A stretch of DNA of 34,751 nt, from assembly GCA_902762795.1 (NCBI GenBank), contig CACWPM010000031.1, forward strand, positions 1-34,751, written 5' to 3'. How positions within the stretch are numbered: position 1 is the stretch's first letter; every line of letters starts with the position of its first letter. The notes beneath the pieces were generated by a model. That model was given only the letters and a program-made list of their open reading frames with translations. It had not been told where the DNA came from and ran no database searches. Below are positions 2,411 to 34,446 of the stretch, one piece after another. The translations under genes and the position numbers were made by a program. Source of the DNA: Fibrobacter succinogenes (GTDB lineage Bacteria > Fibrobacterota > Fibrobacteria > Fibrobacterales > Fibrobacteraceae).

Positions 2411-3295
2411 TTACATTTTTGATACAGCAAGCAAAGCGGCACCACCAAGAATGATCGTAGTCGCTATGGAAAGCCTAATTCGTTCCAATTTTGTCGGATA
2501 TTCATGAAAAACGACAACGCCCCAAAGCAGGTTGACCAACAAATTCAGTTGTGTAAGCGGATAGCCCACAGCATAGCCCAGGGCGCCTTTCGTGTCAATC
2601 GCCCAAAAACAGCCATGTTGCCCAATCACCCACAAAAAGCCCATGAAAACGGATGCTATTGAAGGCGCGACCCGGTATTCAAAAGGGGAGCGGCGCTTGA
2701 TACTCAGAATTACAACCAAAAGCTCTGCCGCCATAAAAATTCCAAGCGTAAAGGAACTCATGAATTCTAACAAAGGTATTTCGGTAAACTTATACGGAAT
2801 AAGGAACAAGCCGAATATGGCGCCGGCCAAAAGGGACCGCCAATTTTTTAAAATGCGCCCTTGAGGCGGAGCAAGCATTTTCAGCCCCAAAAGCAAAAGA
2901 AGGATTGCTGGAATCGAAAAATAAAGCAGGGTAGTTTCCGAAAAGACAATCACGCCGCTCAAAAACGAAGCGAGGATACTCATGCCCATCGAGCGGACTC
3001 CGGCTCCGGTCAAGTCCTCGACCTTAACCGCCCAAAAACAAAAAGCTCCCGCGATGACCCACAGAAAGCCACAAAGGATACCGACCGGCAAGAAGCACAA
3101 CGTGCCCGTCGCAAGCGAAATAATCAGTTCGCCAACAGCAAGCCCGAGCGCAACGCACGAAAGGTACGCCCAAGACGAAAACTTCGGCCACGCCTTGAGC
3201 GGAACCATGTAAGTGCCAAACGCAAAAACAGCAAGGACGACGCCCAGATAGCTATTTCCCAATGCAGAACCCCGCAAAAATCTTTTGTAAAACAT
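2411..3295 (-). CDS. GRP/DMT-type sugar permease (GlcU/RhaT-like), 10 TM
   Basis: Integral membrane protein of 294 aa with about ten hydrophobic segments, the usual size of the glucose/ribose porter (GRP) family in the drug/metabolite transporter superfamily. Family-like features are the repeated GFLWVIGxxxCFWA-type segments in each half and the YPLTQLNLLVNLLWGVVVF stretch near residue 245. It would import a sugar by ion symport across the inner membrane; the substrate cannot be read from sequence. Its 5' end overlaps the 3' end of mnmE by 44 nt if the ATG at 3295 is used. A TTG at 3262, 7 nt after GGGG and overlapping the mnmE stop, is an alternative start. Either way it should be translationally coupled to mnmE. 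Confidence 0.75.
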   Translation of the reverse strand: MFYKRFLRGSALGNSYLGVVLAVFAFGTYMVPLKAWPKFSSWAYLSCVALGLAVGELIISLATGTLCFLPVGILCGFLWVIAGAFCFWAVKVEDLTGAGVRSMGMSILASFLSGVIVFSETTLLYFSIPAILLLLLGLKMLAPPQGRILKNWRSLLAGAIFGLFLIPYKFTEIPLLEFMSSFTLGIFMAAELLVVILSIKRRSPFEYRVAPSIASVFMGFLWVIGQHGCFWAIDTKGALGYAVGYPLTQLNLLVNLLWGVVVFHEYPTKLERIRLSIATTIILGGAALLAVSKM

Positions 3296-4718
3296 CTTCG
3301 GACGAAATTTCGCCCGTTATACTCTGGAGCGAACGGCGCACAAGCTGCATTTCGAACGCCAAGAGTTCCACCGCCGGATTGGTGCGGATAAGCGAAAGCA
3401 CTCGGTCAATACCCGCAAGGGCTTCTTCGAGGCAGGTCTTTTCGCGTTCGCTCGTGATCCAAAGGTCCTCGGAATTTTCAATTTTCTTGAAAAGCGCTGC
3501 GTTCATGGCGCGCTTGAGTTCCGCGAGGCCCTCGCCCGTTTTCGAGGAAACGTGAATACTCTCGTCTTTCGTCTTTGTACTTTCGCTTCGCTCAAGTACC
3601 AAATGCTGAGCTCGGTCATATTCATGCAAGCATGGCTGCGACACAAGCTCTTCGCATTTGTCATCTAACAAGTCACTCTTCGAAACGACGACAAGGTCGG
3701 GCTGGAGACCCTTCGACTCCACTTCGTTTCGCTCAGGATGATAAAATGCGCCGCGCTCGTCTAAACTGCCGTCGAGGACCAAAATTTTCATGTCGGCTTC
3801 GGCGAGAATTTCCTTGCTCTTTTCCATGCTAAGAGCGTCGAGAGCGTCGGTCGCCTTGTCCGCGATACCGGCGGTATCGACCAGGCGGATTTCACCCCCG
3901 TCCAGGAACAAACGGACTTCTACAAAGTCGCGGGTAGTGCCGGGGATGTTGCTCACCAGGATGCGGTCTTCGCCGAGGAGAGCGTTCACGAGGCTTGACT
4001 TGCCTGCATTCGGGGCACCGTACAAAACAGCAAGCGGCAATCGGCTGACCGCCGCCTTGCCCTTGAAACTTTTCAAAATGGATTCTACGCTTTCGCGGAT
4101 GGCTGCGATTTTTACGCCCCAAGTCGCATAATCCGGGTCGGCTTCTTCTTCGGCAAAATCGACATCAAGTTCGAGGCGCGCCGAGATGTCCATCACCTGT
4201 TCCGTGAGCGTCCTGACTTTTTTCGAGAGCGCGCCGCCGAGCAAGCGATGGGCGTTCTTGAGCTCGTCGCGGTTTGCGCTGTGGATAACATCGGCAACGG
4301 ATTCGGCCTGCACCAAGTCCATGCGACCGTTCAAAAAAGCGCGGCGCGTGTATTCACCCGGTTCCGCCAAACGTACGCCATCAACGCTCTTGATGACTTG
4401 AATCAATTCGCGGACGATGATCGGGTTCCCGTGCGGATAAAGTTCCAGAACATCTTCGCCTGTGTAAGAATTCGGAGCTTCGAAAAAAATGTACAGGAGA
4501 CTGTCGACGACTTGCGCCGTTTTGCGGTCATCGCCGACCATTGTACGATAGTCGCGAGCCGTCGCAAGCTTTGCCTCTCGGGGCTTCAAATTTTTGAGCG
4601 CCGATTCACCGAAAAGCAGGCGCATAACTTCGCGCACCTTAGGACCGCTTACGCGAATAGCGGCAACGGCACTTACGCCCGCAGGCGTCATCGGGGCAAC
4701 AATCGTTTGGGAATCCAT
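3252..4718 (-). CDS. mnmE: tRNA modification GTPase MnmE (TrmE) with repeat-derived inserts
   Basis: MnmE works with MnmG to place the (carboxymethyl)aminomethyl group on wobble uridine of certain tRNAs. The 488-aa product has the N-terminal folate-binding domain, the helical domain and an inserted G domain: G1 GAPNAGKSS (234-242), G2 GTTRD (260-264), G3 DTAG (281-284), G4 SKSD (346-349), and the C-terminal FCIGK (484-488) with its catalytic Cys. The family is usually about 450-460 aa. The extra length lies in the G domain: residues about 324-337 and 353-385 are encoded by copies of dispersed palindromic repeats also found between genes (see findings). All G motifs are intact, so the protein is probably functional. 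A TATCTT hexamer 7 nt before the ATG and no Shine-Dalgarno suggest a leaderless mRNA. The sugar permease gene follows with overlap. Confidence 0.97.
   Translation of the reverse strand: MDSQTIVAPMTPAGVSAVAAIRVSGPKVREVMRLLFGESALKNLKPREAKLATARDYRTMVGDDRKTAQVVDSLLYIFFEAPNSYTGEDVLELYPHGNPIIVRELIQVIKSVDGVRLAEPGEYTRRAFLNGRMDLVQAESVADVIHSANRDELKNAHRLLGGALSKKVRTLTEQVMDISARLELDVDFAEEEADPDYATWGVKIAAIRESVESILKSFKGKAAVSRLPLAVLYGAPNAGKSSLVNALLGEDRILVSNIPGTTRDFVEVRLFLDGGEIRLVDTAGIADKATDALDALSMEKSKEILAEADMKILVLDGSLDERGAFYHPERNEVESKGLQPDLVVVSKSDLLDDKCEELVSQPCLHEYDRAQHLVLERSESTKTKDESIHVSSKTGEGLAELKRAMNAALFKKIENSEDLWITSEREKTCLEEALAGIDRVLSLIRTNPAVELLAFEMQLVRRSLQSITGEISSEDVLQKIFAGFCIGK
3577..3664. repeat. Dispersed repeat family B, in frame inside mnmE
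   Basis: Begins with a GTACTT / AAGTAC hairpin and continues as GCTCAAGTACCAAATGCTGA. This matches the intergenic copy at 34365-34442, the first 20 bases being identical and most of the remaining roughly 55 matching. The inner hairpin here is CATGC/GCATG; in the other copy it is CCAAGC/GCTTGG, a compensated change. It encodes MnmE residues about 353-380, between G4 and the next helix. Confidence 0.8.
3708..3748. repeat. Dispersed repeat family A, in frame inside mnmE
   Basis: Has the form CCCTTCGACT-n-TTCGCTCAGGATGA, as in the intergenic copy at 34260-34286 and the copy inside coaBC at 32149-32189. It encodes MnmE residues about 324-337 in the G3-G4 loop. Confidence 0.8.
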
Positions 4719-4725
4719 GAAGCGA

Positions 4726-4731
4726 AAGATA
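4726..4731 (-). promoter_or_regulatory. -10-like hexamer of mnmE, leaderless spacing
   Basis: TATCTT lies exactly 7 nt before the mnmE ATG (4718). Initiation at the usual distance from a -10 element would fall on the A of ATG. No Shine-Dalgarno is present. Confidence 0.5.
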
Positions 4732-4801
4732 GTTTTTTTAGTTGGTAGAACTTAGAGCTTAGCAATCTAAAAAGGATGAAATTGAAAAAAGGGCGAAAAT
4801 T

Positions 4802-5040: not shown

Positions 5041-5177
5041 AAAGGCAAAAAAAACAAATTCAAGAAAAATCGCGCTACCGCAAACAAATTAACATCATTC
5101 CCATCCCTGCAACCTAGAACTCCTAGAAAGCATTTTTCTAAATCATCCCACACTCTTTCGTCTCTCGTCTGTAGCGA

Positions 5178-5234
5178 GCCTGCAAGCGTCATCGGGGCTA
5201 CAATCGTTCGGGAATCCATGAGGCGAAAAATTGT
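5178..5234 (-). pseudogene. Decayed duplicate of the mnmE 5' end
   Basis: About 57 bp align to the mnmE start region (4676-4732) with roughly 50 identities, including the start codon and the first 14 codons (MDSRTIVAPMTLAG against MDSQTIVAPMTPAG). Homology stops on both sides: downstream the reading continues into unrelated sequence, and the -10 TATCTT has become AATTTT. It cannot encode MnmE and is either a gene remnant or part of a mobile repeat that captured the mnmE start. Confidence 0.7.
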
Positions 5235-19931: not shown

Positions 19932-20040
19932 TAGCGGCTCCGCCGCAGTTGGCAGAACTTAGTTGGCAGAACTTAGAGAGATTGCTACGCTTCGCTCACC
20001 ATGACGTTACTCTAAGTTCTAAGATCTAAGTTCTAAGTTC
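19932..20040. repeat. Composite repeat cluster between gltX and the BON gene
   Basis: Contains the hairpin GCGGCTCCGCCGC followed by AGTT and two GGCAGAACTTAG units, a family A-like copy (GCTTCGCTCACCATGAC, about 19988-20005), and then several TAAGTTCT units that are inverted relative to AACTTAG. The same GCGGCTYCGCCGCAGT start occurs at 5263-5278, and AACTTAG recurs at 4749. No coding capacity. Confidence 0.75.
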
Positions 20041-31408: not shown

Positions 31409-32749
31409 CTAAGCGTTCTTTAACTTATCTAAGCTAAAATCTACAATTTCTTGCGCCAAATCGATTTTCGAGCCCATCTTCATTTCAGGAATTTCAACCT
31501 CGGCAACGTTACGGGAGTCGCAAGCGTTTTGTGCATTGCGGGAGTTCGCGCGAATCAAAGTGTAACGGACTTCGTCAAAACCAAAACCGCTGTTCGCCGC
31601 CACGGGGGCATTGAGGAGGAGCGCATCGGCACCGCTCTTCTTGAGCTTTTCGGCGGCATGTTCCTTGAAATGATCCGTCTCAAGCGCAAAGCCGATAACG
31701 ACCTGGCCCGCACACTTTTGTGCAACGCTGTCGCGCAAGATGTTCGGATTCGGTTCCAGTTCCAAGACGAGCTGGCTACGGCTATCCTTGATTTTTTCGG
31801 TAGCGGCTACTTTCGGGCGGTAATCGGCCACGGCAGCGCAATGCACGAGCACATCGGCATTTTTCATCTGTTCGAGAACAGCCTTGTGCATATCGCAGGC
31901 GCTACGAATTTTCGTCACGTGAACGGCGCCAGGGAATTCCGCTTCCATCGGGCCTGCGACAACGCTCACGTCAAAGCCGTTCGCAAGAAACGTCGCCGCA
32001 ATCGCAACGGCAGTCTTTCCGCTGCTGCGGTTGCTAATGTAGCGCACTGGGTCAATAGCTTCTTCGGTGCGGCCAGCCGTGATAAGGACCTTCTTGCCGT
32101 AACCGGGAAGCGTCGGATTCACTTCATTTTCAGCAGGAAGAGTTTGAAGATCCTTCGACTTCGCGCGCGGCGCTTCGCTCAGGATGACACCTCTCTCGTC
32201 TTTCGTCTCTCGTCTCTTCTCTAAATACGCGACGATTTCTGCAGGGTCGAGGAGGCGGCCTTTGCCAACTTCGCCACAGGCAAGCTCGCCCGCCGGGCTA
32301 TCCATCACGAACGTGTTTTCAAAACTGCGGAGCGTTTCGAGGTTGCGCTTAACCGCCGGGGAATTGAACATCGCGACATTCATCGCAGGGGCGATAAAAC
32401 GCGGGCCCGTGCAGCTCATAAAGCAGAGGCTCACAGGGTCATCGGCTATGCCATAGACAAACTTTCCGATGACATTCGCGGTCGCCGGAACAACGAGATA
32501 AAGGTCGGCCCAACGCGGAAAATCGATGTGCTGGAACGGGCGCGCTTCAACGGCACCATTTTTCAAGTAAACGGGGCACTTGGAGAGGCTCGCGAACGTG
32601 AGCGGAGCGACAAACTGCGTGGCGGCTTCGGTCATGCAGACGCGCACTTCAGCGCCTCTCTTTTGCAACAGGCGCAAGAGTTCACAAGATTTGTAGGCGG
32701 CAATTCCGCCCGAGACTCCAAGAAGAATTTTCTTTCCAGCGAGGTTCAT
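31409..32749 (-). CDS. coaBC: Bifunctional phosphopantothenoylcysteine decarboxylase/synthetase CoaBC (Dfp)
   Basis: 446 aa. Makes 4'-phosphopantetheine from 4'-phosphopantothenate and cysteine for CoA synthesis. The CoaC flavoprotein domain (1-175) has GVSGGIAAYK (11-20), the catalytic His74 in HIDFPRWAD, PAMN (121-124) and Cys158 in GELACGEVGKGR. The CoaB domain (219-446) has LITAGRTEEAIDPVRYISN, NRSSGK, HCAAVADYRP and LEPNPNIL. The family is usually near 400 aa. The excess includes residues about 179-203 between the domains, encoded by a dispersed palindromic repeat. The start at 32749 is chosen by homology: reading on to 32929 would translate the tandem repeats. TATCTT is 7 nt before the ATG, without Shine-Dalgarno. 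Confidence 0.96.
   Translation of the reverse strand: MNLAGKKILLGVSGGIAAYKSCELLRLLQKRGAEVRVCMTEAATQFVAPLTFASLSKCPVYLKNGAVEARPFQHIDFPRWADLYLVVPATANVIGKFVYGIADDPVSLCFMSCTGPRFIAPAMNVAMFNSPAVKRNLETLRSFENTFVMDSPAGELACGEVGKGRLLDPAEIVAYLEKRRETKDERGVILSEAPRAKSKDLQTLPAENEVNPTLPGYGKKVLITAGRTEEAIDPVRYISNRSSGKTAVAIAATFLANGFDVSVVAGPMEAEFPGAVHVTKIRSACDMHKAVLEQMKNADVLVHCAAVADYRPKVAATEKIKDSRSQLVLELEPNPNILRDSVAQKCAGQVVIGFALETDHFKEHAAEKLKKSGADALLLNAPVAANSGFGFDEVRYTLIRANSRNAQNACDSRNVAEVEIPEMKMGSKIDLAQEIVDFSLDKLKNA
32147..32212. repeat. Dispersed repeat family A with CTCTCGTCTTTCGTCTC tail, in frame inside coaBC
   Basis: ATCCTTCGACT...GCTTCGCTCAGGATGAC (32149-32187) is followed by CTCTCGTCTTTCGTCTCTCG. The first part matches 34260-34286 and 3708-3748. 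The pyrimidine-rich tail resembles sequence beside the repeat in mnmE (CTCTCGTCTTTCGTCTTTG, 3560-3578) and at 5154-5170. It falls exactly between the CoaC and CoaB domains. Confidence 0.8.
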
Positions 32750-32762: not shown

Positions 32763-32767
32763 GAAAA

Positions 32768-32998
32768 GTGTGCAAGGCGAGAGAAGCGCGAAAATTTATT
32801 TTCGCATTTCCGAGCCGTAGCCACGGACGCCAAAGGCGTCAAAAGTGTGCAAGGCGAGAGAAGCGCAAAAACTTGTTTTTGCATTTCCGAGCCGAAGCCA
32901 CGGACGCCGTAGGCGTCAAAAGCGCACAAGGCGAGTGATGCGCGAAAACTCGTTTTCGCATATCCGAGCCGTAGCAGCGGACGCTGTAGGCGTCAATT
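32768..32998. repeat. Three 77-bp tandem repeats with two hairpins each
   Basis: Units at 32768-32844, 32845-32921 and 32922-32998 are contiguous and of identical length. Each starts GYGYRCAAGGCGAG. Each has a first hairpin (GCGAAAAT/ATTTTCGC, GCAAAAAC/GTTTTTGC and GCGAAAAC/GTTTTCGC in units 1-3) and a second hairpin (GACGCC-AAA-GGCGTC, GACGCC-GTA-GGCGTC and GACGCT-GTA-GGCGTC). Base changes in the first stem are compensated on the other arm. A 15-nt match to the unit start recurs at 33099-33113. Confidence 0.92.
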
Positions 32999-34259: not shown

Positions 34260-34446
34260 GGATCCTTCGACTTCGCTCAGGATGACATTACTGTCTACTT
34301 GTACTCTCGCTTCTCCCCACAGAGGATAACTCAACTAAGGCAATAAATTGCCGAGTTTCGTATAGCTCAAGTACCAAATGCTGACCTCGGTCATGCCCAA
34401 GCAAGCTTGGTCGCGACGCTCGGCCTATGCATTTGTCCTACTGCCT
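34260..34446. repeat. Composite repeat: family A and family B copies in the rpsA 3' region
   Basis: The family A copy (GATCCTTCGACTTCGCTCAG followed by GATGAC, 34260-34286) is followed by CTGTCTACTTGTACTCTCGC (34291-34310), and the family B copy (GCTCAAGTACCAAATGCTGA onward, 34365-34442) ends in CTACTGCCTACTT. Nothing else is seen between the rpsA stop and its terminator. Confidence 0.8.

Follow-up and report, generated by a model that had tools for sequence, protein, structure and literature searches.

Rickettsia palindromic elements (RPEs) are palindromes of 105-146 bp (PMC2229807) that lie both between genes and in frame within unrelated conserved proteins (reviewed in PMC2229807 and PMC6649704). 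For one of them, which lies in guanylate kinase, translation as part of an active enzyme has been demonstrated (PMC2229807), and repeats have also been found in the genes for tRNA pseudouridine synthase B and uvrB of R. conorii (PMC3733652). The CGTC-tagged REPs described by Di Nocera et al. (2013) are spread over five phyla, include RPE-4 and RPE-6, have intragenic copies, in truB and uvrB among others, and lack a dedicated transposase; Fibrobacter is not mentioned among their hosts (PMC3733652). For the GTAG REPs, association with RAYT (REP-associated tyrosine transposase) defines the REP/RAYT system (PMC2817692).

The literature that we searched, with subscription journals mostly outside it, held no account of such repeats in Fibrobacter. 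A further comparison is offered by the small dispersed repeats (SDRs) of Nostoc, described by Elhai et al. (Genome Res, 2008); these cyanobacterial repeats are reportedly 21-27 nt long, show compensatory changes, often lie in tandem heptamers and are nested within each other. Here we analysed a 34,751-nt stretch of Fibrobacter succinogenes DNA (the window), contig 31 in a genome of 3.93 Mb and 89 contigs labelled G000, and describe two dispersed repeats, A and B, that lie in frame in its mnmE gene.

Repeats A and B within mnmE

The repeats occupy two loops of MnmE, hereafter site 1 (the loop before SKSD) and site 2 (the loop between SKSD and SSKTG):

3252-4718, minus strand: mnmE (tRNA modification GTPase), host of the inserts, 488 aa
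3708-3743, minus strand: repeat A insert, loop site 1, between VLDGS and PDLVVVSKSD; translated HPERNEVESKG
3576-3660, minus strand: repeat B insert, 85 nt, site 2, between SKSDL and SSKTG; model match 3597-3662, 78.5 bits
3577-3599, minus strand: B tail hairpin in mnmE, GTACTTGAGCGAAGCGAAAGTAC; A-type, but with a different stem
3559-3575, minus strand: period-7 (heptamer) array AAGACGAAAGACGAGAG, loop site 2

A preliminary description of this DNA had placed A and B correctly and had left the period-7 array, a third component, unmentioned. It had also called the two families unrelated; they are separate repeats, but not wholly unrelated, since B ends in an A-type hairpin. The frame stays open across both repeats. 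Pfam detected the domains PF10396, PF12631 and PF01926 in the protein of the window, which ends in FCIGK, in agreement with the earlier statement that the GTPase motifs and the C-terminal end are intact; solved homologues in the PDB are 3gee, 9hip and 1xzp. The span from ADMK to the G5 region measures 91 codons in G000 and 49 codons in the congener where it is shortest; together, A, B and the arrays thus lengthen the G000 MnmE by about 40 residues, compared with the former figure of about 35.

Repeat A, a palindrome similar to CGTC-tagged REPs

The mnmE copy of A resembles a CGTC-tagged REP with an enlarged centre. The A core, TCATCCTGAGCGAA, lies on the minus strand with 0 mismatches at 3728-3741, at 32174-32187 (coaBC) and at 34272-34285, which confirms the copies previously reported in coaBC and near 34260-34286:

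32147-32188, minus strand: repeat A, in frame in coaBC, translated VILSEAPRAKSKDL; the heptamer peptide RETKDERG precedes it
34261-34287, minus strand: intergenic copy of repeat A, with the A core match

Genome-wide, the core was found at 56 sites with at most one mismatch, against 0 for the reversed pattern. One end of A carries an unpaired tag, TGTC or CGTC, in 22 of the 25 copies from the same genome and in 122 of 133 from other genomes. The stem ATCCT...AGGAT has A-T and T-A as its first two pairs, which outside Fibrobacter are fixed by the search pattern itself. A CCA tail was present in 6/25 own copies and 6/133 elsewhere, most copies having CTN.

The A 23-mer, CATCCTGAGCGAAGCGAAGGATC, occurs exactly in at least 118 stretches with unrelated flanks (L111-L228), compared with a calculated chance expectation of about 0.007 matches in 2.57e11 bases of uniform composition. 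Among the matches listed are Firmicutes, Bacteroidota, Acidobacteria, Nitrospirota, Planctomycetota, Chloroflexi, Patescibacteria, Verrucomicrobiota, Proteobacteria and one archaeal bin, many of the sources being metagenome bins, so that single taxon assignments are uncertain.

The A hairpin alone has a DNA folding energy that is not exceptional compared with shuffled sequences (z -0.47), and the mnmE copy folds poorly as RNA (z 0.5). Because the folding energy is ordinary, the structural case for A is made by its inverted repeat together with the variants of the B tail hairpin. In both A and the B tail, the tip is d(GCGAAGC), with tandem G.A pairs beneath. Structures have been solved for d(GCGAAGC) as a DNA hairpin (1KR8 and 1PQT; PMC5430850), so single-stranded DNA is a plausible working form, which suggests that A and the B tail may act as single-stranded DNA.

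Repeat B, a structured hairpin of Fibrobacter

The mnmE copy of B consists of a core hairpin, CAAATGC...GCATTTG, and the tail hairpin, and it stands between GA and AAGACGA of the array; the covariance model recognised it as a 66-position structured element (E 5.3e-19). The window holds further copies:

34375-34435, minus strand: B core hairpin, intergenic copy; model match 34372-34437, 86.5 bits
34300-34374, minus strand: tail hairpin of the same intergenic copy, split by a nested element (about 34312-34364)
32764-32994, plus strand: three tandem B-type copies, 77 nt each; model matches 32766-32827, 32843-32904 and 32920-32981

The intergenic copy is conserved, as had been claimed, being 78% identical to the mnmE copy (3581-3662 against 34356-34437); its extent is refined to 34300-34435, nested element included. 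The tandem copies lie just upstream of the likely coaBC start and have the inner pairs GAA/TTC where B has GTC/GAC.

In the 3.93-Mb genome, B gave 41 BLAST matches and 126 covariance-model matches (E up to 0.01), so both repeats have the many further copies that a genome search had been expected to reveal. With stricter filters, B was found in all 25 Fibrobacter genomes, at 8-109 copies each. One marginal match was obtained in 16 other Fibrobacterota, and the B model had 0 matches in 80 A-carrying loci (590 kb) from other phyla. Judging from these searches, B is a hairpin restricted to Fibrobacter. An Rfam search of the window gave no match.

B measures 61-88 nt overall (core hairpin 61 nt; about 85 nt with the tail hairpin). 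Its core has an outer 7-bp stem, an internal GGCGAGNGTCGC / ATGACCGAGCC with GA facing GA, and a variable inner stem. In 19 copies, 93.3% of the cells paired and 17 of the 22 pairs were changed on both sides; the informative measure is the covariation, 0.527 against 0.184 in shuffled and at most 0.116 in slid alignments, the structure having been drawn from the same 19 sequences. The B tail shares the centre GA-GCGAAGC-GA with A and differs in its stem, whose sequence varies among B tails with compensation; the tails pair at 100%, a figure inflated by the inverted-repeat requirement used to pick them, which leaves the diversity of the stems as the one informative aspect. Nested in the tail hairpin is a third element of about 52 nt, present in the window's intergenic copy and in the G013 copies L263 and L266 and missing from L262. 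At the G013 loci L259-L266, the B copies make up a near-identical subfamily whose GTAG-type array flanks are shared, which suggests that B was amplified recently in G013.

Entry of B into heptamer arrays

A filled and an empty site can be compared in cobA-hemD, where a stretch of 210 nt in G000 corresponds to 138 nt in G004 and G001. The extra 72 nt are B, between the units AGTCGGA and AGTAGGA: G000 reads AGTAGACAGTAGGAAGTCGGA, then CAAATGC...CATTCA (72 nt), then AGTAGGAAGTGATTCTGTCATCC, and in both G004 and G001 these two flanks are joined with no such insert between them. This insertion is a multiple of three, lies at the junction of heptamer units, and left no target duplication beyond one or two unassignable bases; the array adjoined A already before B entered. 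In mnmE, the G000 arrangement of TTAGATGA, B and AAGACGAAAGACGAGAG corresponds to TTAGACGAAAGACGAGAG in G001, where site 2 has a longer array, TTAGACGAAAGACGAGAGACGAGAGACGAAAGA, and no B.

Across 85 copies, the flanks of B matched themselves at a lag of seven with a frequency of 0.373 on the left and 0.340 on the right, compared with 0.244 in control DNA at least 1 kb from B copies. The arrays flanking B are of two main kinds, GACGARA and AGTAGGA/AGTAGAC; the other arrays of the mnmE loops (GAATTCG/GAGTTCG, AACAATT and CTCGAAC) are of period 7 by eye. These results showed that B enters tandem heptamer arrays without detectable target duplication. Further arrays of the AGAACTTAG type, apparently of period 7 and inverted in part, were seen at 19945-20034 and 4738-4757.

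Two variable loops of MnmE

We compared the MnmE frames of G000, 22 congeners and 7 order- or class-level relatives. Among the 22 congeners, length differences are concentrated in the two G-domain loops, and all 22 frames spanning them are open and in frame. The loops of most congeners hold dispersed repeats of differing kind (A, B, antisense A or period-7 arrays) or almost nothing. At site 1, A is present in G000 and G001, a heptamer array plus A in G004, B in another arrangement in G006, a different repeat (VIARERSDRGN) in G008 and G023, and a period-7 array (EQLTINNEQLL) in G024. At site 2, G000 has B plus the heptamer array, G001 the array without B, G006 no insert, G007 several antisense A-type copies, and G024 a CHCERSEAIS repeat. 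Both loops are nearly empty in G003 and G017. In some congeners, such as G021, the loop residues are not recognisably derived from repeats, and free variation in loop length contributes as well.

None of these repeats was found in MnmE of the 7 relatives outside the genus, where the loops are short (somewhat longer at site 1 in G037); as far as these relatives reach, the inserts are thus not residues shared with distant MnmE proteins. The alignment of congeners, which had been proposed as a check, shows the repeats present, absent or replaced at the same two loops, and this pattern, the lack of the inserts in the relatives, the exact filled/empty pair and the many intergenic copies support the preliminary reading of an RPE-like in-frame insertion. 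The accompanying idea that A and B travel together is not supported: in mnmE, G001 and G004 have A but lack B, G006 carries B at site 1, and the cobA-hemD copy of B joined an array that already lay beside A. The two repeats co-occur in repeat islands, though they are separable.

In an AlphaFold model computed from an alignment, pLDDT fell below 50 at MnmE residues 321-334 and 353-384 and in the seven C-terminal residues, most other positions being modelled with higher confidence. The stretches 321-334 and 353-384 fall inside the two insert loops, so the inserts most likely form disordered surface loops.

Other host proteins and the reading frame of B

The dispersed repeats are intergenic and also lie in frame in mnmE, coaBC, truB, cobA-hemD, uvrB, an SNF2-type helicase gene and a PHP-domain protein gene. 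The names MnmE and CoaBC come from Pfam, and the other proteins are what we take them to be from reading their sequences. In TruB and CobA-HemD, the repeats stand at specific loops and differ between species as in MnmE; the coaBC linker holds A in the G000 window and B in G020 (L303); and in G000, repeat-encoded segments occur also in UvrB, the SNF2-type helicase, the PHP-domain protein and others. Orthologous sites without the insert were found in relatives in the mnmE, truB and cobA-hemD comparisons.

B is read in one and the same sense frame in seven genes, namely mnmE, cobA-hemD, the PHP protein and SNF2-type helicase genes, truB (G004), coaBC (G020) and an unidentified gene in L313, with 3-5 of the 6 frames open. 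If open frames were equally usable, the calculated chance of such agreement is about 1 in 2,700. Read in the sense frame, B gives a hydrophilic peptide, and selection on this peptide would be a simple reason for the shared frame. Most of the 85 B copies examined, which are not a random sample, lie outside genes; 12 of the 85 are within a frame that continues for 45 codons or more to either side, several such frames probably being due to chance.

Copies of B at gene ends

In three genes, B lies just after the stop codon, between two copies of the 3' coding end:

L268-L275, L298, L306 and L003: gene-end B copies (valS, SSS-type transporter, radical-SAM)

This arrangement was found for valS in G000, G001, G005, G019 and G020 (more complex in G011), for the SSS-type transporter in G005, G012, G023 and G015, and for the radical-SAM gene in G004, G006 and G019. 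The gene is completed by the first copy of the 3' end, which shows many synonymous differences. The second copy is the native end, now displaced; in G005 it is followed by the downstream sequence seen in G010, a genome without the insertion. The inserted unit is about 140 nt long and, in the valS type 2 and transporter cases, 98-100% identical between species, compared with 90-91% for the upstream flanks and 66-81% for the displaced ends, identities that rest on small numbers. G001, G011 and G012 each have more than one valS C-terminal coding region.

These arrangements raise the possibility, a doubtful one in our judgement, that B is the mark of a class of tiny, site-specific mobile units that carry a rescue gene end; gene conversion is a rival explanation for the near-identity of the units. 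If such a class exists, its members would amount to minimal homing-like elements able to restore the very gene into which they are inserted. The 5' region of mnmE may be a mirror-image case:

5178-5234, minus strand: second, displaced mnmE 5' end, comprising the leader and codons 1-15; 57 nt, 88% identical to 4677-4733
5148-5172, minus strand: heptamer array CTACAGACGAGAGACGAAAGAG, adjoining the displaced mnmE 5' end

About 430 nt separate this displaced end from the functional start, and when this spacer was tested as a high-copy element it proved not to be one.

Origin of the inserts

The observations to be explained are the dispersal of the repeats, their covarying hairpins, presence or absence by species, the exact insertion into an array, the preserved frame and the low-confidence loops. 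We consider it highly probable that A and B are small non-autonomous selfish repeats that were inserted in mnmE and kept where frame and loops tolerate them. A would be a palindrome of the CGTC-tagged REP type inserted in mnmE, and B a Fibrobacter-specific hairpin that enters heptamer arrays without duplicating its target; both would be retained because the frame is kept and the loops tolerate extra residues. The insert peptides would be translated and nearly neutral, and the hairpins would be mobilised in trans by an enzyme. That this enzyme acts on single-stranded DNA is the weakest step, possible rather than probable.

A benefit to the host, with the repeats serving as RNA or DNA elements that stabilise transcripts, tune translation or provide topoisomerase or termination sites, also within mRNAs, would fit the strong covariation of the B core and tail, and REPs have been proposed as RNA elements (PMC3733652); however, occupancy, repeat type and position in mnmE change by species and the G003 loops are nearly empty, and we regard this explanation as unlikely. 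Mobilisation of A and B as REPs by RAYT is less probable still. Both are high-copy palindromes and B often follows GTAGGA, but GTAG is part of one of two heptamer array types, the other being GACGA. No mobilising enzyme was found among the Y1 transposases (PF01797), which occur in only 8 of 25 Fibrobacter genomes; neither A nor B was present in the DNA around the gene at the 12 Fibrobacter Y1 loci inspected, and most B-rich genomes, such as G006 with 102 B copies, had no Y1 match. A link of RAYT or Y1 to A or B is thus unsupported.

About equally improbable is that the loops are hypervariable low-complexity protein sequence, shaped by slippage and substitution, with a secondary likeness to repeats. 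The period-7 arrays at the sites could grow in this way, and the loop residues of a few congeners match no repeat seen here; yet B in mnmE is a structured element (78.5 bits, E 5.3e-19) with copies elsewhere, and the 72-nt filled/empty pair fits a one-step insertion and by itself largely refutes this explanation. Finally, the inserts, being hairpins within coding regions, might be bypassed and not translated, like the palindromic elements of Magnusiomyces mitochondria (PMC6649704). Skipping needs neither open frames, found in 22 of 22 congeners, nor a shared frame of the in-gene B copies, and we give this reading hardly any chance. The preferred reading thus remains that of selfish repeats kept where the protein tolerates them.

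Comparison with described systems

The phenomenon is known already; what is new is the hairpin family, the genus and the striking recurrence. Judged by their dispersal and their absence from orthologous sites, A and B belong to an RPE-like class, translation of the inserts in a working protein being predicted. The genus Fibrobacter thereby joins the alpha-proteobacterial parasites that gave the first descriptions of protein-coding palindromes. In MnmE, TruB, CobA-HemD and CoaBC, a given loop was entered by one repeat in one species and by another elsewhere, a natural experiment on what selfish peptides cost and what becomes of them in a single fold, and the clean insertion into a heptamer array makes the mobilisation of small repeats testable.

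Like RPEs, the Fibrobacter repeats are palindromic and lie both between genes and in frame in unrelated conserved proteins. Unlike them, they occur in another phylum, are inserted into heptamer arrays and have been replaced at one loop between species; B, at about 72-88 nt against 105-146 bp, is also shorter. A shares with the CGTC-tagged REPs its tag, a palindrome with AT at both ends, intragenic copies and the lack of a known dedicated transposase, but its mnmE copy has an enlarged centre and a CCA tail is found in a minority of copies; the A 23-mer reaches more phyla and an archaeal bin, compared with the five phyla of those REPs. With GTAG REPs, A and B have in common that they are short high-copy palindromes with covarying stems, whereas the tag and structure of B differ and no rayt gene flanked by A or B was found. 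Compared by description, B differs from the Nostoc SDRs in its 61-88 nt, its elaborate conserved core and its presence also in conserved proteins. As these SDRs are reported, however, B resembles them in its heptamer arrays, compensatory changes and nesting, and they are the closest match to its placement.
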